Source: Candidatus Pelagibacterales bacterium (GTDB lineage Bacteria; Pseudomonadota; Alphaproteobacteria; TMED109). Taken from it: 58,314 bases of DNA. Shown here in pieces: positions 49,546 to 56,849 of this stretch. Position 1 is the first letter of the stretch. Every line of letters begins with the position of its first letter. A program made the position numbers and the translations under genes. The stretch is taken from positions 16,994 through 75,307 of the forward strand of contig PAZF01000012.1 of the NCBI GenBank assembly GCA_002715505.1, written 5' to 3'. Below the pieces are notes generated by a model. The model saw only the letters and a program-made list of their open reading frames with translations. It made no database searches and was not told the DNA's origin.

Positions 49546-50001
49546 ATGAAAAGATTTTATATTTTACTTATTTACATTCTATTTATAAAAAATAATCCTG
49601 CTAATGCGATTGACCCTTTAACTTGGGAATCTAAGGGAAATATAATTAGAGAAGAGGTTATAGATTTTCCTAGCGGTAAAAAATTTATTTCTCTTAAGCA
49701 TGAGGGTGGTTTTGAGACATCTATGGCAAGATATGGATCATACTTTTGCTCGGGAAATATTTTTTATAATCAAAAAGGAAATCTTGAGAAAATGATTTAT
49801 GCATGTGAATTTATAGATCAAAAGGGTGATAAGTTTTTTGCTATAGGTTCCAGAAATAAAGGATCAGATACTGATAGGTCAATTGGAAGAATGACTATTA
49901 TTGAAGGTCAGAAATTCTGGAAAAACTATGAGGGTAAAATTTGTATATATGGACTTGAATATGTAAACAAAACAGTTTTTATCAAAGCAAAATGTAATTA
50001 A
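49546..50001 (+). CDS. Secreted four-cysteine family protein (outlier member)
   Basis: 151 residues with a signal peptide (FYILLIYILFIKNNPANA). The body has ARYGSYFCSGNIF, then IYACEFIDQKGDKFFAIGSR, IGRMTIIEGQKFW and KICIYGLEYVNKTVFIKAKC: the same four Cys and order as the array at 52415-56849, but with IGRM for the usual AGIGK. It follows the dehydratase by 8 bases, so it appears to be in that sigma-54-controlled unit. It may be the flagellar or surface-linked branch of the family. Function unknown. Confidence 0.72.
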   Translation: MKRFYILLIYILFIKNNPANAIDPLTWESKGNIIREEVIDFPSGKKFISLKHEGGFETSMARYGSYFCSGNIFYNQKGNLEKMIYACEFIDQKGDKFFAIGSRNKGSDTDRSIGRMTIIEGQKFWKNYEGKICIYGLEYVNKTVFIKAKCN

Positions 50002-51163: not shown

Positions 51164-51296
51164 AATTCTAAATTAAAAATTTTATTCATAGCATATTTTA
51201 TTAAAAATCTCATAGCTTTAATTTCATAGCAATCTAATAATACAATTAAAAGTATAAATAGTTTACAAATTTTAAAAATGTTTTATAATATATTTT

Positions 51297-51345
51297 CGTT
51301 CATCTATCTAGACGGAAGTAGGATATATAATATCTGAAGGAACGC
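51297..51345 (+). ncRNA. Glutamine riboswitch aptamer 1 (glnA / Downstream-peptide RNA type)
   Basis: Core elements in order: CGTTCATCTATCTAGACGG, GAAGTAGG and GAAGGAACGC. The outer stem pairs CGTTC with GAACG, and the inner stem is formed by TCTA and TAGA. The conserved GGAAGTAGG and GAAGGAACGC match the glutamine-binding glnA and Downstream-peptide RNAs known mainly from cyanobacteria and marine samples. First of two tandem copies. Confidence 0.82.
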
Positions 51346-51353
51346 ATTACGTT

Positions 51354-51400
51354 CGTTCATCTCTTAGAGACGGAAGTAGGTAATGGTACCGAAGGAACGC
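51354..51400 (+). ncRNA. Glutamine riboswitch aptamer 2
   Basis: Same elements: CGTTCATCTCTTAGAGACGG, GAAGTAGG, GAAGGAACGC, with a better inner stem (TCTC/GAGA). It starts 8 bases after aptamer 1. The 37 bases between it and the start codon at 51438 hold the ribosome site (AGGAAGTGAG) and presumably the expression platform. Tandem copies could give a sharper response to glutamine. Confidence 0.85.
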
Positions 51401-51437
51401 GCTAACTTTTTTAATTTATTAAGAAAGGAAGTGAGTT

Positions 51438-51545
51438 ATGGATAGAATGTCTTTGTATTATTTTACAAAAGAAAGACAAGCTATTAAAAATAAGAAGATG
51501 CTTTTTAAGCTTTTTTTTATTTTTAGTTCTAATACTTTTAAATAA
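51438..51545 (+). CDS. 35-residue peptide under glutamine riboswitch control
   Basis: ATG 51438, stop 51543. It begins MDRMSLYYFTKERQAIKNKK and ends MLFKLFFIFSSNTFK: a basic helical first half and a hydrophobic end. The ribosome site AGGAAGTGAG is strong. In cyanobacteria, glutamine riboswitches control small proteins that inhibit glutamine synthetase; this peptide has no seen identity to those, but the logic (small basic peptide, glutamine sensor) is the same. It could be an inhibitor or regulator of nitrogen assimilation; this is inference. Confidence 0.7.
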   Translation: MDRMSLYYFTKERQAIKNKKMLFKLFFIFSSNTFK

Positions 51546-51554
51546 GTATTTTAC

Positions 51555-51587
51555 GTATGTGGTAGTTTTTACTACCACATACTTTTT
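51555..51587 (+). terminator. Rho-independent terminator of the peptide gene
   Basis: Perfect 12-base stem (51555-51566 with 51571-51582), TTTT loop, followed by TTTTT. It closes the riboswitch-peptide transcript 9 bases after its stop. The MORN gene ends 40 bases further on, on the other strand. Confidence 0.88.
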
Positions 51588-52414: not shown

Positions 52415-52888
52415 TTAGTTTTTAAGAACACTTAATACTCCTTTTTCAAGTTTACATTTTTCTTTAATAAAACTAGATTTTTTGAACTTAGTTACAGCAT
52501 ACAAACATTTTGTTCCTATTAATTTTTTAAACTTTCCAGTAGCATCTATTATTGTAGAGTCCCCTACTCCAGCTTTAAATGAGGAACTACTTCTTTCTAA
52601 AACAGACCATACTTTATTTCCATCGTTCATAGAGCTTTCACAAATCACTCTTAAAAATATTAATTTATCCTTATTCTTCTCAATAAGACTATTACATTTA
52701 ATATTGCCATAGTTTCCTATATTATTTTTTATATGACCTTTAAGGCTAGAAGACTCAAAAGTTCTTCCGTCTTCTAATTTATAAAGACCATCTATAGTTG
52801 CACTAAAATTGAATTCATTGACTAGTTGATCGGAAAAGGATTTACCTATCATTAAGTGACTAACTAAAATTAATATTAGAAATTTCAT
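52415..52888 (-). CDS. Secreted four-cysteine family protein, array member 8
   Basis: 157 residues, signal peptide (LILILVSHLMIGKSFS). Shared features: IGNYGNIKC (Cys 1), RVICES (Cys 2), KAGVGDSTIIDATGKFKKLI, then GTKCLYAV (Cys 3) and FIKEKCKLE (Cys 4). Own promoter AGGACA-N16-TATAAT at 52895-52922. Last member of the array. Nothing enzymatic seen; a small beta-barrel like the allene-oxide-cyclase or dirigent folds is possible from the GTGKFKKLIG motif. Confidence 0.78.
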   Translation of the reverse strand: MKFLILILVSHLMIGKSFSDQLVNEFNFSATIDGLYKLEDGRTFESSSLKGHIKNNIGNYGNIKCNSLIEKNKDKLIFLRVICESSMNDGNKVWSVLERSSSSFKAGVGDSTIIDATGKFKKLIGTKCLYAVTKFKKSSFIKEKCKLEKGVLSVLKN

Positions 52889-52894
52889 ATTTTA

Positions 52895-52922
52895 ATTATA
52901 TTAAAAAATTTACTACTGTCCT
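52895..52922 (-). promoter_or_regulatory. AGGACA-type promoter of array member 8
   Basis: The minus strand has AGGACA (52917-52922), 16 bases, TATAAT (52895-52900). Shared with the promoters at 54867, 55407 and 56856. The -35 box differs from TTGACA in a constant way, suggesting a special sigma factor or activator. Confidence 0.65.
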
Positions 52923-52972
52923 TATAAATCTCAAAACTGAGTCTTAAATTGATAAATTAAAAAATTTATAAG

Positions 52973-53308
52973 TTAGTTCTTGCAACTAAGTGATGGCAAT
53001 TTAAATATTCCATCATCCCTCTTTGTATAACCTCTTTTTTTCATACATAAATTAAATTTAGAAAAAGAAAATTTTTTATTTTTTAAGTTACTTCCTCCTC
53101 CGCCACCTCCTCCGCCTCCATAAGCGAATACAGGAGATATTAAAGAAAGGCTTATGCTAGACTCATTACTGGTTAAAGAGTCACAAGTTTTAATCATACA
53201 ATGATTAAAATCTTGATTAAACTTATCAAAATTTTTGTGAGAACTTCCATATTTAGTGGTGCAGGACACTAAAAAAAAAAGTAATGGTAATAAGCAAATA
53301 TTTCTCAT
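52973..53308 (-). CDS. Putative lipoprotein with nine-glycine run
   Basis: 111 residues. Lipobox LFFLVSCTT puts the lipidated Cys at 16. Further Cys in FNHCMIKTC and FNLCMKKRGY, and a run of nine Gly after VFAY. The F-x-x-CM-x-K-x-GY ending is common in small marine alphaproteobacterial lipoproteins. Lies inside the four-cysteine array but is not a member. Function unknown. Confidence 0.6.
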   Translation of the reverse strand: MRNICLLPLLFFLVSCTTKYGSSHKNFDKFNQDFNHCMIKTCDSLTSNESSISLSLISPVFAYGGGGGGGGGSNLKNKKFSFSKFNLCMKKRGYTKRDDGIFKLPSLSCKN

Positions 53309-53344
53309 AATAATAATATAGATATAAATATTTTGTTTCCAAGT

Positions 53345-53839
53345 TTATTGATTACTATATTTTTTCAAAATATTATATTCATCTATTGTAATTTTACACA
53401 AAAGTTTAAAAACTCCGCCACCATCGATTATTTGTGCAGCATATGGACATTCTTTTTCTTCTAAAATTTTATATTTTTTTTCAGTATGTAAATATTTATT
53501 TTTTCCTATTCCTGCTTTGTTAAAAGAATTTCTCTTAAGAGCAGTCCAGAATTTTTCTTTTTCAAAATCTTCTGCCTCGCAATATGCATCCAAGGAAATT
53601 TGTTGTCTCTTATTAATAAATTGAGAAACTATACATCTCATTATTCCATAATTTCCAAAGTTATCTTCCCAAACTCCTTTTGTATCATAAGTCTCATACC
53701 TAGAAGAGTCAGGAAAGTTAATTATATTATCCTCAACTTCAATACTAGGATACCAATTAAATTTATATTCTTTTGTTTCTTGTGCTAATGAATAGAATGA
53801 TAATAAAGAAACAAAAATAATTATTAAAAAATTTCTCAT
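53345..53839 (-). CDS. Secreted four-cysteine family protein, array member 7
   Basis: 164 residues with signal peptide (LIIIFVSLLSFYSLA). Keeps DNFGNYGIMRC (Cys 1), DAYCEAED (Cys 2), FNKAGIGKNKYLH, EKECPYAAQI (Cys 3) and FKLLCKI (Cys 4). The GTGK block is changed to TEKKYKILEE, the most diverged of the set. The upstream 84 bases lack the AGGACA promoter. Confidence 0.75.
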   Translation of the reverse strand: MRNFLIIIFVSLLSFYSLAQETKEYKFNWYPSIEVEDNIINFPDSSRYETYDTKGVWEDNFGNYGIMRCIVSQFINKRQQISLDAYCEAEDFEKEKFWTALKRNSFNKAGIGKNKYLHTEKKYKILEEKECPYAAQIIDGGGVFKLLCKITIDEYNILKKYSNQ

Positions 53840-53923
53840 AATTATTCTTCACATTAAGTTTAGTATTTTGCAAGAAATATATTCCAACTCGGAATTACTA
53901 ATTATTAATAATATAGTAATCAC

Positions 53924-54409
53924 TTAATTATTATATTTTGATAAATGCTTATGCATATCTTCGTTTATAGAACATTTCCTGATACTAAAAGTTCTATCAT
54001 CTAAGTACCTTATTGAATAAACACAAGTAGCGCCTATAATTTTTTTCCATTTGCCCTGACCTTCAATAAATAATGCTTTTCCGCTACCTGCAGAAAGTTC
54101 ATTACCTTTTCTACTATTATGCAAAGTAAATTTATTACCTGCTTGATCATTAAGTTTACAATAACTATCAAGTTCTATAATTATTGCTTTATTATTATAC
54201 TTAATGCTAGTAAGACAATAAGAGGTTCCATAGTTTCCGTAATTATCAGTCCATTCTGACTCATAAACATTATGAGAGATTTTACTTTTGTCTAAAAAAA
54301 TCATTTCATTCTTTTTATATGATCCGCTCAAATTGAATTTTAGATCAAATTCCTTGCAATGAATCTTTGAAGTCATAATTATTAAAATTATATGTAAGAT
54401 ATATTTCAT
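53924..54409 (-). CDS. Secreted four-cysteine family protein, array member 6
   Basis: 161 residues, signal peptide (ILHIILIIMTSKIHC). Has TDNYGNYGTSYC (Cys 1), DSYCKLND (Cys 2), LSAGSGKALFIEGQGKWKKI, GATCVYSIRYL (Cys 3) and FSIRKC (Cys 4). It starts 10 bases after member 5, so the two are one operon from the promoter at 54867. Confidence 0.78.
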   Translation of the reverse strand: MKYILHIILIIMTSKIHCKEFDLKFNLSGSYKKNEMIFLDKSKISHNVYESEWTDNYGNYGTSYCLTSIKYNNKAIIIELDSYCKLNDQAGNKFTLHNSRKGNELSAGSGKALFIEGQGKWKKIIGATCVYSIRYLDDRTFSIRKCSINEDMHKHLSKYNN

Positions 54410-54419
54410 ATCTTAACAG

Positions 54420-54860
54420 TTAAGGTAACTCACAAATTTGCTTAAAAAAGTTAATTTTTTCATTCATATAATTTACAGCATAAGGACATTCAATGCCTAT
54501 GAATTTTTTATATTTCCCTGTTCCATTTAAAAATCTAATTTTTCCTATTCCAGCCTCCATATTTTTATCTCTAATTAACTGCGTCCAGAATTTATCACCA
54601 TTTGATGCTAGCTGTTCGCAATATATAATTAAAGAAATTGCTTTATTTTCTGTCAGTATATGTCCATTACACTTCCCAGTACCATATTCACCAAAGGAGT
54701 CAGTCCATCTATTTTCTATAACTACAGTTGTAGACTTTAGATCTTTCGTGATATTTATGTGATCAGACTTAACGCTAGAAGATGACTCATTAATATATTT
54801 TTCAGCTTTAGACAAAGTAACATATAACAAGGCTAAATTTATAATAAGTATATATTTCAC
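54420..54860 (-). CDS. Secreted four-cysteine family protein, array member 5
   Basis: 146 residues from GTG 54858-54860. Signal peptide (ILIINLALLYVTLSKA). Motifs WTDSFGEYGTGKC (Cys 1), IIYCEQL (Cys 2), MEAGIGKIRFLNGTGKYKKF, GIECPYAV (Cys 3) and FFKQICELP (Cys 4). Preceded by the AGGACA-type promoter. Confidence 0.78.
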   Translation of the reverse strand: MKYILIINLALLYVTLSKAEKYINESSSSVKSDHINITKDLKSTTVVIENRWTDSFGEYGTGKCNGHILTENKAISLIIYCEQLASNGDKFWTQLIRDKNMEAGIGKIRFLNGTGKYKKFIGIECPYAVNYMNEKINFFKQICELP

Positions 54861-54866
54861 AACTCT

Positions 54867-54894
54867 ATTATATAAAGAATTTTAAAAATGTCCT
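54867..54894 (-). promoter_or_regulatory. AGGACA-type promoter of array members 5 and 6
   Basis: The minus strand has AGGACA (54889-54894), 16 bases, TATAAT (54867-54872). The -10 box lies 6 bases from the GTG start, so the mRNA leader would be very short or absent. Confidence 0.65.
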
Positions 54895-54917
54895 TATATT
54901 ATATTACTATAAAGATT

Positions 54918-55400
54918 TTATTTATTTAAACCTTTAAGAGTTTTGAATGCGTCATCATTCAATTCACACTTCTGAATGCCAAATACATTCTCATTTAAAA
55001 TTTTTATACTGTAAGTACATTTGGTATTTATTAAACTACTCATATTTTCATCTGCCCCTATAACAACTACTTTACCTATTCCTGTATCCTCATCACTATC
55101 TCCCCTTCTTCCTTTAAAATAAATTTTACTTGAATCTTGATATTCCCATCTAGTACTAAAATCCATAGTCACAATTTTTCCTTGCTCTATTTGAGTAATA
55201 ACCATGGTGTCCCATGAACCATAGTTAGCAAAGTTATCTGTAAATGTTCCTTCAATAGTATAAGTAATAATTTTTCCTGTATGAGAATATTTATGTGTAT
55301 TTATAAGTGTTCTTTTTCCTCCAAAATCTACTGTTAATATATTTTTAGCAGAAATTTGTATTGTATAAAAAGTGATTATAGTAATTAATAAATATTTCAT
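54918..55400 (-). CDS. Secreted four-cysteine family protein, array member 4 (two cysteines lost)
   Basis: 160 residues, signal peptide (LITIITFYTIQISA). Follows the family with DNFANYGSWD, DTGIGKVVVIG, NTKCTYSIKIL (Cys 3) and FGIQKCEL (Cys 4), but the first two cysteines are both missing (SWD and STRWEY there). The joint loss fits a Cys1-Cys2 disulfide. It has its own AGGACA-type promoter. Confidence 0.75.
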   Translation of the reverse strand: MKYLLITIITFYTIQISAKNILTVDFGGKRTLINTHKYSHTGKIITYTIEGTFTDNFANYGSWDTMVITQIEQGKIVTMDFSTRWEYQDSSKIYFKGRRGDSDEDTGIGKVVVIGADENMSSLINTKCTYSIKILNENVFGIQKCELNDDAFKTLKGLNK

Positions 55401-55406
55401 ATTTTA

Positions 55407-55434
55407 AGTATATTGGGAATTTTAATACTGTCCT
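55407..55434 (-). promoter_or_regulatory. AGGACA-type promoter of array member 4
   Basis: The minus strand has AGGACA (55429-55434), 16 bases, TATACT (55407-55412). The ATG is 6 bases from the -10 box, again implying a short leader. Confidence 0.62.
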
Positions 55435-55475
55435 TTTTTTTCGTGTCTTATTTGTAAAAAAACAAGCATAGCATA

Positions 55476-55955
55476 TTATTGAGCATTAAATTTACATTTA
55501 CTTTTAATAAATGAACCTTTTCCTTCTTTAAGATGCGATACAGCGTATACACATTTTGTACCTATATATTTTTTAAATTTACCAGTACCCTTAACATATT
55601 TTAATTCTCCTATTCCTGCATCAAAATCATTAGAGTTTCTATTCATAATTAACCAAAAGTTGTCATCCTCTACGTTTGTTCCTTTACAATAATTCTTTGC
55701 TATTGTTCCTTTTTCTTTATGTAAGGTATGAGAACCTGTGCATTCAATTATACCCCAATCCCCCAATGTATCTTTCCAATTAGACTTTACGTAAAATTGT
55801 CTATAAATTAATAAGTCAGGAAGTTCTATTACTCTTATATCTCCTTCATTAGATAAAACCTCAAATTCAAAGTCATAAGAATATAGATGTTTGTTTATTA
55901 ATAAAAAAATAAAAATAAATATGATTTTTTTTGAATACATTACTAATTTCGACAT
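55476..55955 (-). CDS. Secreted four-cysteine family protein, array member 3
   Basis: 159 residues, signal peptide (IIFIFIFLLINKHLYS). Has KDTLGDWGIIEC (Cys 1), KNYCKGTN (Cys 2), DAGIGELKYVKGTGKFKKYI, GTKCVYAVSHL (Cys 3) and FIKSKCKF (Cys 4). Overlaps member 2 by 13 bases, third gene of the first operon. Confidence 0.78.
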   Translation of the reverse strand: MSKLVMYSKKIIFIFIFLLINKHLYSYDFEFEVLSNEGDIRVIELPDLLIYRQFYVKSNWKDTLGDWGIIECTGSHTLHKEKGTIAKNYCKGTNVEDDNFWLIMNRNSNDFDAGIGELKYVKGTGKFKKYIGTKCVYAVSHLKEGKGSFIKSKCKFNAQ

Positions 55956-56440
55956 TTAGTTTTTGTATGAAAAGTATCTTTATAATAAGTAACAGCATAA
56001 ACACAAGTTTTACCTATAAGGTTTTCGTATTTCTTAGTTGCAGATGTTATAGAGGTTTTTCCTACTCCTGCTTCCCACTCAGAATCACTTCTTTTAGGTA
56101 TAAACCATATATACTCTCCATCAACATCTTCTAACTCGCATAAAATTAATTCATTATCAGTTCTTTTTCCGCTTTTATTAATAAGAAGACTTCCTTTACA
56201 TTTAAATTTACCATAATTATTTGAATTATCGTTCCAATTTCCTTTACTCTCATAATGTACTAGCTTATTTTCATTTTGCATTACAATTTCATCATTTTTA
56301 TAATAACCTCTAATATCTATAACTAAATCTTCTGCTAAAGCAGAAAAAATAAATAAACTTAAAAAAATTGTTAAAAAAAATTTCACAATTATATTATTCT
56401 CCAGGAAACTTGCATTTTTGCGAAGCAAATAATACCTCAT
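55943..56440 (-). CDS. Secreted four-cysteine family protein, array member 2
   Basis: 165 residues as read from 56440, although the start may lie further in; a signal-like segment is at about 20-36 (KFFLTIFLSLFIFSALA). Motifs WNDNSNNYGKFKC (Cys 1), ELILCELED (Cys 2), WEAGVGKTSITSATKKYENL, GKTCVYAVTYY (Cys 3) and HTKTKCRN (Cys 4). Overlaps member 1 by 47 bases at this start; a more likely start is a later codon just before the signal segment. Confidence 0.72.
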   Translation of the reverse strand: MRYYLLRKNASFLENNIIVKFFLTIFLSLFIFSALAEDLVIDIRGYYKNDEIVMQNENKLVHYESKGNWNDNSNNYGKFKCKGSLLINKSGKRTDNELILCELEDVDGEYIWFIPKRSDSEWEAGVGKTSITSATKKYENLIGKTCVYAVTYYKDTFHTKTKCRN

Positions 56441-56849
56441 CTACATACTTTACTCCATAAATACACGTTGCTCCAATTAACTTTTCCCACTTTCCTGTAC
56501 CATCAATAATTTTCTGTTTACCAACTCCTGCTTGTGCATCCTCTGATTTTCTTGAACCTTTAGTAAATATTTTGTCACTATCCTGATCACTTAATTCACA
56601 ATAATATTGAAAAAAATCGTCTTTATTCTTATTAGATTCAACAATTCCGTAGCAATATCCTTTTCCAAAGTTTCCAAGACTATCCTCCCAGGTACCGTTA
56701 TTAAAAAGATTAATTATTTTTCCACCACTAGGTAATTTTATAGTTTTTAGATCTACATAACCTGAATATTTAAAATTCCATTTTAATGAATCTTCAGAAT
56801 AAACATTAACTGTTAAAAGAAATAAAATAATTTTTATAATTTTATTCAT
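56394..56849 (-). CDS. Secreted four-cysteine family protein, array member 1
   Basis: 151 residues, signal peptide (IIKIILFLLTVNVYS). Has WEDSLGNFGKGYC (Cys 1), QYYCELSD (Cys 2), AQAGVGKQKIIDGTGKWEKL, GATCIYGVKYV (Cys 3) and FASQKCKFP (Cys 4). First gene of the array, with the AGGACA-type promoter just upstream. Confidence 0.8.
   Translation of the reverse strand: MNKIIKIILFLLTVNVYSEDSLKWNFKYSGYVDLKTIKLPSGGKIINLFNNGTWEDSLGNFGKGYCYGIVESNKNKDDFFQYYCELSDQDSDKIFTKGSRKSEDAQAGVGKQKIIDGTGKWEKLIGATCIYGVKYVDEVLFASQKCKFPGE

Follow-up and report, generated by a model that had tools for sequence, protein, structure and literature searches.

What do two glutamine riboswitches, placed one behind the other, control when they are followed by a gene of 35 codons in a streamlined alphaproteobacterium? 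The question is raised by a locus within a 58-kb stretch of DNA (58,314 nucleotides, hereafter the window), for which an initial annotation had proposed tandem glutamine-binding RNAs of the glnA and Downstream-peptide kinds, a 35-codon frame and a terminator. The frame (51438-51545) and a 12-bp terminator stem followed by TTTTT are both present and were correctly placed. The RNA part of the reading, that of a riboswitch pair, is near certain, and we have very little doubt that the pair controls the 35-residue peptide.

Tandem type 1 aptamers on a short transcript

Aptamer 1 (positions 51295-51348, forward strand) and aptamer 2 (51352-51403, forward strand) match the Rfam covariance model of the glnA RNA (RF01739) at 54.3 bits (E 3.3e-9) and 58.3 bits (E 2.5e-10), respectively, against a gathering score of 35 bits, and both do so over the full-length model (model positions 1-53). 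The tandem glutamine riboswitches are thus confirmed by the glnA covariance model that the initial annotation had named as a check. The two copies share with known glnA RNAs the sequence, the structure and all conserved model positions, and the P3 arm of aptamer 1 is altered in sequence, with pairing kept, in G022, a genome from another genus of the same GTDB family. The Downstream-peptide motif finds no support because its model (RF01704) has zero matches in the 58-kb window, in which the Rfam scan returned no matches besides the two RF01739 copies. Both aptamers are of the type 1 glnA motif only.

Upstream of the aptamers, and beyond what the initial annotation listed, lies a promoter-like site (TTTACA and TATAAT separated by 16 nucleotides; 51262-51289, forward strand; 11 of 12 consensus matches), from which transcription is predicted to start at about 51296, in the first bases of aptamer 1. 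We regard this promoter as putative since such sites are only modestly in excess in the region (6 versus 3.7 in shuffles). The intrinsic terminator (51555-51582, forward strand) consists of a perfect 12-bp stem with a loop of 4 and the run of T; one such terminator was found where 0.1 is expected in shuffles, and in G022 a stem of different sequence is still paired at the same place. With a promoter before it and a terminator after it, the unit appears to be a single short, monocistronic mRNA of about 295 nt, with two aptamers and one 35-codon gene.

A conserved 35-residue protein

A transcript of this length, with a promoter and a terminator of its own, could also be a glutamine-binding small RNA or sponge in which the ORF is incidental. 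We consider this highly improbable in view of the reading frame itself. The ORF (51438-51545, forward strand) encodes a basic protein, MDRMSLYYFTKERQAIKNKKMLFKLFFIFSSNTFK, and the initial annotation had looked to conservation of the frame in related genomes; in G022 an ORF with 74% identity occupies the corresponding position, again preceded by the tandem riboswitch. The two versions differ at 22 nucleotides, which are distributed 3/6/13 over codon positions 1/2/3, with no indel and no stop (dN 0.138, dS 1.33, dN/dS about 0.10), and in a random-substitution simulation as many conserved residues arose with P = 5e-5. The Shine-Dalgarno (SD) sequence and start codon are also precisely placed behind a covarying hairpin, which again speaks against a sponge. 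Judged by these substitution patterns, the ORF encodes a real protein under strong purifying selection and is not a chance frame.

The surroundings of the unit are shared with G022 as well: a 59-62-residue ORF lies on one side and a MORN_2-repeat protein (PF07661; 51627-52340, reverse strand; syntenic in G022, locus L107) on the other. The peptide is present in only 2 of the 28 genomes of the GTDB family, many of which are incomplete; a match in G025, of the same family, was taken as noise (E 0.02, contains a stop). Elsewhere in the window, at 52415-56849 (reverse strand) and at 49546-50001 (forward strand), there are at least seven tandem paralogues of 146-165 residues, probably secreted, that share the motif AGxGK...GTGK.KK.IG..C.YA; the one tested belongs to no Pfam family.

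Like the cyanobacterial glutamine synthetase (GS) inactivating factors, the peptide is small and basic (8 K/R versus 2 D/E over 35 residues). Its AlphaFold2 model is a single helix (residues 3-34, pLDDT 88), and its second half is hydrophobic. It has no match in Pfam even at E 10, none in PHROG at E up to 1, no meaningful match in the PDB, and no detectable similarity to DUF4278, IF7 or IF17 in the Pfam and PDB comparisons. By sequence comparison, then, it resembles no known family, DUF4278 included. Two candidate resemblances were set aside. An IF7-like pattern, IKN[RK]..ML.[RK], has no support from the Pfam or PDB comparison and was left unused. An alignment (M-L-[WY]...RQA) with a family from Burkholderiales and phages (MNLWTQYCRRQAR...) is suggestive, and this homology was dropped because the profile scores do not beat shuffled sequences: the score of 0.2 bits was reached by 802 of 4598 scored shuffles.

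Expression platform and direction of switching

In the peptide leaders, a hairpin covering the SD sequence starts directly after P1 of the second aptamer. Folding places the SD-sequestering hairpin of the window at 51400-51433 (forward strand): an outer stem, CGCU (51400-51403) with AGUG (51430-51433), is followed by a 2x2 internal loop and an inner stem (51406-51414 with 51419-51427), and the first pair uses the aptamer nucleotide C60. Of 31 distinct leaders, 30 have an SD hairpin starting from C60, whereas shuffled leaders give 3.7 on average and 8 at most (the window leader is counted from a version one base short, and its full hairpin was folded separately), so that the expression platform is coupled to the aptamer. 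Each leader was folded singly because hairpin lengths differ, which makes a MAFFT alignment of the leaders misleading. The outer stem displays compensatory changes across lineages: CGCU/AGUG in the window, CACU/AGUG in G022, CACCU/GGGUG in Burkholderiales and in the alphaproteobacterial locus L052, CAUCU/AGAUG in SAR86, and CAAUCU/AGAUUG and CACUC/GAGUG in phages.

According to PMC11477058, a G23-C60 pair forms in the glutamine-bound aptamer, and C60 of that crystal structure would correspond to the first nucleotide after P1 here. In folding calculations, blocking C60 costs the window hairpin 2.4 kcal/mol, and removal of the outer stem leaves most of GGAAG free in the window leader. The contest for C60 and these energetics lead us to predict a translational ON switch, in which high glutamine releases the mini-protein, and we hold this direction to be probable. 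At low glutamine, the hairpin with C60 in its closing pair would keep the ribosome-binding site hidden. Upon binding of glutamine to aptamer 2, G23 would capture C60, the outer stem would open and the protein would be translated, and two aptamers in series would be expected to sharpen the response. Aptamer and hairpin compete directly for no more than one closing pair, a small lever that counts against the model.

The opposite direction, an OFF switch whose peptide promotes nitrogen scavenging at low glutamine, is suggested by the genes that stand behind other copies of the aptamer. Two further glutamine riboswitches in the same genome, both single, lie between a PII gene and glnA and before amtB, where glutamine is expected to lower expression, and tandem copies precede GS genes in SAR86 and SAR92. 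However, the SD hairpin of the peptide leaders is missing from the glnA and amtB leaders of the genus, where a common hairpin of this kind was looked for and not found, and C60 of the peptide leaders is claimed both by that hairpin and by the ligand-bound aptamer. Moreover, the type 1 and type 2 glutamine riboswitches are both known ON switches, one of them acting on the GS inhibitor IF17 (PMC6316151). An OFF switch at the peptide locus is thus improbable; the glnA and amtB leaders, because they lack the hairpin, may switch in another direction than the peptide leaders. In the glnA leaders of the window genus (g1) and of g8 (L002, L008, L010, L011, L013), CGGUA stands directly after P1 and could pair with a later UACCG, well upstream of the SD sequence, possibly as a second type of expression platform.

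Glutamine sensing in the genome, genus and family

GlnD, the PII-modifying enzyme, and GlnE are the glutamine sensors of proteobacteria. The genome that contains the window (1.70 Mb, 97.6% complete) keeps PII in two copies, while PF08335 (the GlnD/GlnE domain) and PF03710 (GlnE) are absent from all four genomes of the genus. Within the family, neither GlnD nor GlnE is found in g1, g3, g6 and g8; some genomes of g2, g4 and g5 retain GlnD alone, and nucleotidyltransferase, UR and HD domains identify the single matches in g2 and g5 as GlnD. Glutamine riboswitches are carried by all four genomes of g1, the one genome of g3 and four of the six of g8, and occur also in g2 and in two of the seven g5 genomes. 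At the other end of this gradient, the seven larger members of the family (2.5-3.8 Mb), with both GlnD and GlnE, have no glutamine riboswitch.

The adenylylation loop of GS parallels this distribution: it reads KNLYDLAPEE where GlnE exists and has drifted to FDLYEASEDQ in g1 and g8, with the tyrosine kept, in a comparison that left out two g7 sequences and whose reference is what we take to be the E. coli GS sequence. One genome, G002 (91% complete), has neither GlnD, GlnE nor the peptide, and the peptide is therefore not essential to that life style. Two of the family's genera have a protein of 110-127 residues, with a signal-like N-terminus and no Pfam family, behind tandem glutamine riboswitches whose linker is long (L007, L018, L005, L019, L006, L017, L024, L026).

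Tandem loci in other bacteria and in phages

The initial annotation had described the motif as known mainly from cyanobacteria and marine metagenomes. It is not confined to cyanobacteria: a pattern scan found 37 tandem type 1 stretches in named genomes, mostly from SAR86, SAR92, Burkholderiales and related metagenome-assembled genomes (MAGs) and single cells, with one other alphaproteobacterial MAG (L052) among them, and a further 42 in IMG/VR. Behind most tandem loci comes an ORF of 33-65 residues, in general 18-30 nt further on. GS genes follow a few of the loci, including some of SAR86 and SAR92. These glutamine synthetase loci (L030, L031, L038, L039, L043 and L056, from SAR86 and other marine gammaproteobacteria) have about 85-90 nt to the start codon and represent another kind of leader.

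The small proteins behind tandem switches belong to several families that look unlike one another, and profile scores link the window peptide to none of the others. Nevertheless, all 57 distinct proteins are basic, with net charges of +3 to +10. DUF4278 is represented in the group by L069, above the Pfam cut-off, and by L049, just below it; the N-terminus of IF17, a cyanobacterial inhibitor of GS, has the same domain (PMC6316151).

Of the 25 hosts of tandem loci, 24 lack GlnE and 16 match PF08335; those PF08335 matches that were examined are GlnD. A GlnE-like match occurs in a single tandem-peptide host, G061 (the host of L052; locus L146), in which the frame has 503 residues, about half the usual length. 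In a Burkholderiales-centred set, none of the eight riboswitch carriers has GlnE, as against 47 of 53 non-carriers (Fisher p 1e-6; size-matched p 0.005; phylogeny ignored and many genomes incomplete). Among alphaproteobacteria, GlnE is present in 0 of 13 carriers versus 27 of 48 others (p 2e-4, phylogeny ignored), and among small alphaproteobacterial genomes the difference is not significant (p 0.14). The association with GlnE is confounded by genome reduction.

In three sampled IMG/VR contigs, genes for a major head protein, a phage DNA polymerase or NrdA adjoin the unit, which makes the phage copies credible. L065, L070, L072, L082, L087 and other IMG/VR loci are on myophage-like contigs with small basic ORFs, such as MTKYQ..FKRAVKR...LPDYI.NNP(F/W)Y, some of them with a YRG motif or a DUF4278 match. 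The presence of the same RNA layout beside such genes in marine myophage-like contigs raises another alternative: the peptide may be membrane-active or toxin-like, or the unit a selfish phage cassette, with glutamine control serving to report growth state or infection. The hydrophobic second half, the predicted single helix and the patchy distribution of the peptide would agree with this. However, relatives of the window peptide occur in none of the phage collections searched (phage records and IMG/VR), its frame is under strong purifying selection in a conserved chromosomal context, and the peptides of the group that have DUF4278 are relatives of the GS inhibitor IF17. We judge a toxin or selfish cassette to be unlikely.

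Origin of the cassette

Aptamer 2 is 85-94% identical to the aptamers of other proteobacterial and phage peptide cassettes (90-94% to the second aptamers of Burkholderiales, SAR86, the alphaproteobacterial locus L052 and the phage locus L090) and 75-77% identical to the aptamers at glnA and amtB in the same genome, in a comparison that leans somewhat towards the cassettes because the scan pattern fixed part of the aptamer core. These identities fit a cassette history that is shared and separate from that of the housekeeping switches. The initial annotation had considered cyanobacteria or their phages as a possible source. Synteny of the locus in the sister genus represented by G022 and the absence of the peptide from the phage collections searched both speak against a recent arrival, and nothing in the origin signal points to cyanobacteria in particular.

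Comparison with known systems and possible target

Weinberg et al. 2010 (PMC2864571) had earlier observed glnA RNAs in tandem in marine metagenomes, and short ORFs behind the type 2 RNA are known from the same paper. The described targets of the glnA RNA are glnA, PII, amt, glutamate synthase and gifB, whereas the target in the window is an unrelated 35-residue protein, and the window version resides in an alphaproteobacterium and has an SD hairpin launched from C60. The type 2 riboswitch of marine picocyanobacteria (RF01704) likewise precedes short ORFs, there of 17-100 residues; unlike the window unit, it has another aptamer architecture, DUF4278 products and a distribution restricted to cyanobacteria. 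Phage Melnitz and the pelagimyophages also carry a glutamine riboswitch outside cyanobacteria, there in phages of streamlined marine bacteria (PMC9004378), but there the switch is linked to ssrA/tmRNA and lysis, and tandem switches before small basic proteins are not described.

The layout has a parallel in gifB/IF17 of Synechocystis, where a type 1 aptamer also precedes a protein that is small and basic, and where the host likewise lacks the glutamine-sensing enzymes of proteobacteria. The differences are that gifB has one aptamer and the window two, that IF17 is larger and contains DUF4278 while the window peptide has no detectable similarity to it, and that inhibition of GS is shown for IF17 and would have to be extrapolated to the window peptide. 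IF7 and IF17 are basic, as are the 57 tandem-locus peptides. We lean towards a peptide that restrains nitrogen assimilation in the manner of the GS inactivating factors of cyanobacteria. This small, basic and helical protein would lower nitrogen assimilation by acting most likely on GS, PII or the ammonium transporter, and may stand in for the GlnD/GlnE glutamine signalling that the genus has lost. GS itself as the direct target is somewhat less likely than not.

An action on PII (GlnB/GlnK) or AmtB instead of GS would have the peptide modulate the choice of PII partners at plentiful nitrogen, in the manner of PirA, a 51-residue PII-binding protein of cyanobacteria (PMC7760959) and itself a small protein for nitrogen control. 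PII is retained in two copies though GlnD is gone, and a sister riboswitch lies between PII and glnA. Yet the peptide has no sequence resemblance to any known PII partner, PirA included, and the PirA source gives no link to a glutamine riboswitch; on balance we find this target rather unlikely.

Of the claims made at the outset, that of a glutamine-sensed small peptide in a non-cyanobacterial host holds, given the riboswitch pair and the conserved ORF. Its role as a regulator of nitrogen assimilation is plausible in the light of the riboswitches at glnA and amtB and of the loss of GlnD and GlnE. The explanation as a whole, a one-gene glutamine-gated switch whose protein restrains nitrogen assimilation, is one to which we would give an even chance.

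Implications

According to a 2018 review, glutamine riboswitches were confined to cyanobacteria, other associations being known only from uncultured environmental sequence. Here they occur in genome-resolved proteobacterial lineages without protein glutamine sensors, and drive a conserved 35-residue protein. New within the literature searched are the genome-resolved hosts among proteobacteria, the link with loss of GlnE/GlnD, the covarying C60 hairpin and the unrelated mini-proteins, that of the window among them.

Our analysis suggests a little-studied brake on nitrogen assimilation, made of an RNA and a mini-protein, in unrelated aquatic bacteria and their phages. In its widest form, which we regard as doubtful, streamlined aquatic proteobacteria that lost GlnE, and with it GS adenylylation, would have replaced it with unrelated small basic proteins, each under a tandem riboswitch and a translational hairpin launched from C60, convergent with the cyanobacterial inactivating factors, and their phages would carry cassettes of this kind to adjust nitrogen assimilation in the infected host. 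If the protein does restrain nitrogen assimilation, abundant aquatic bacteria would on more than one occasion have exchanged the textbook GlnD/GlnE cascade for RNA sensing and a mini-protein, and the cassettes in phages would offer direct access to the viral manipulation of host nitrogen.
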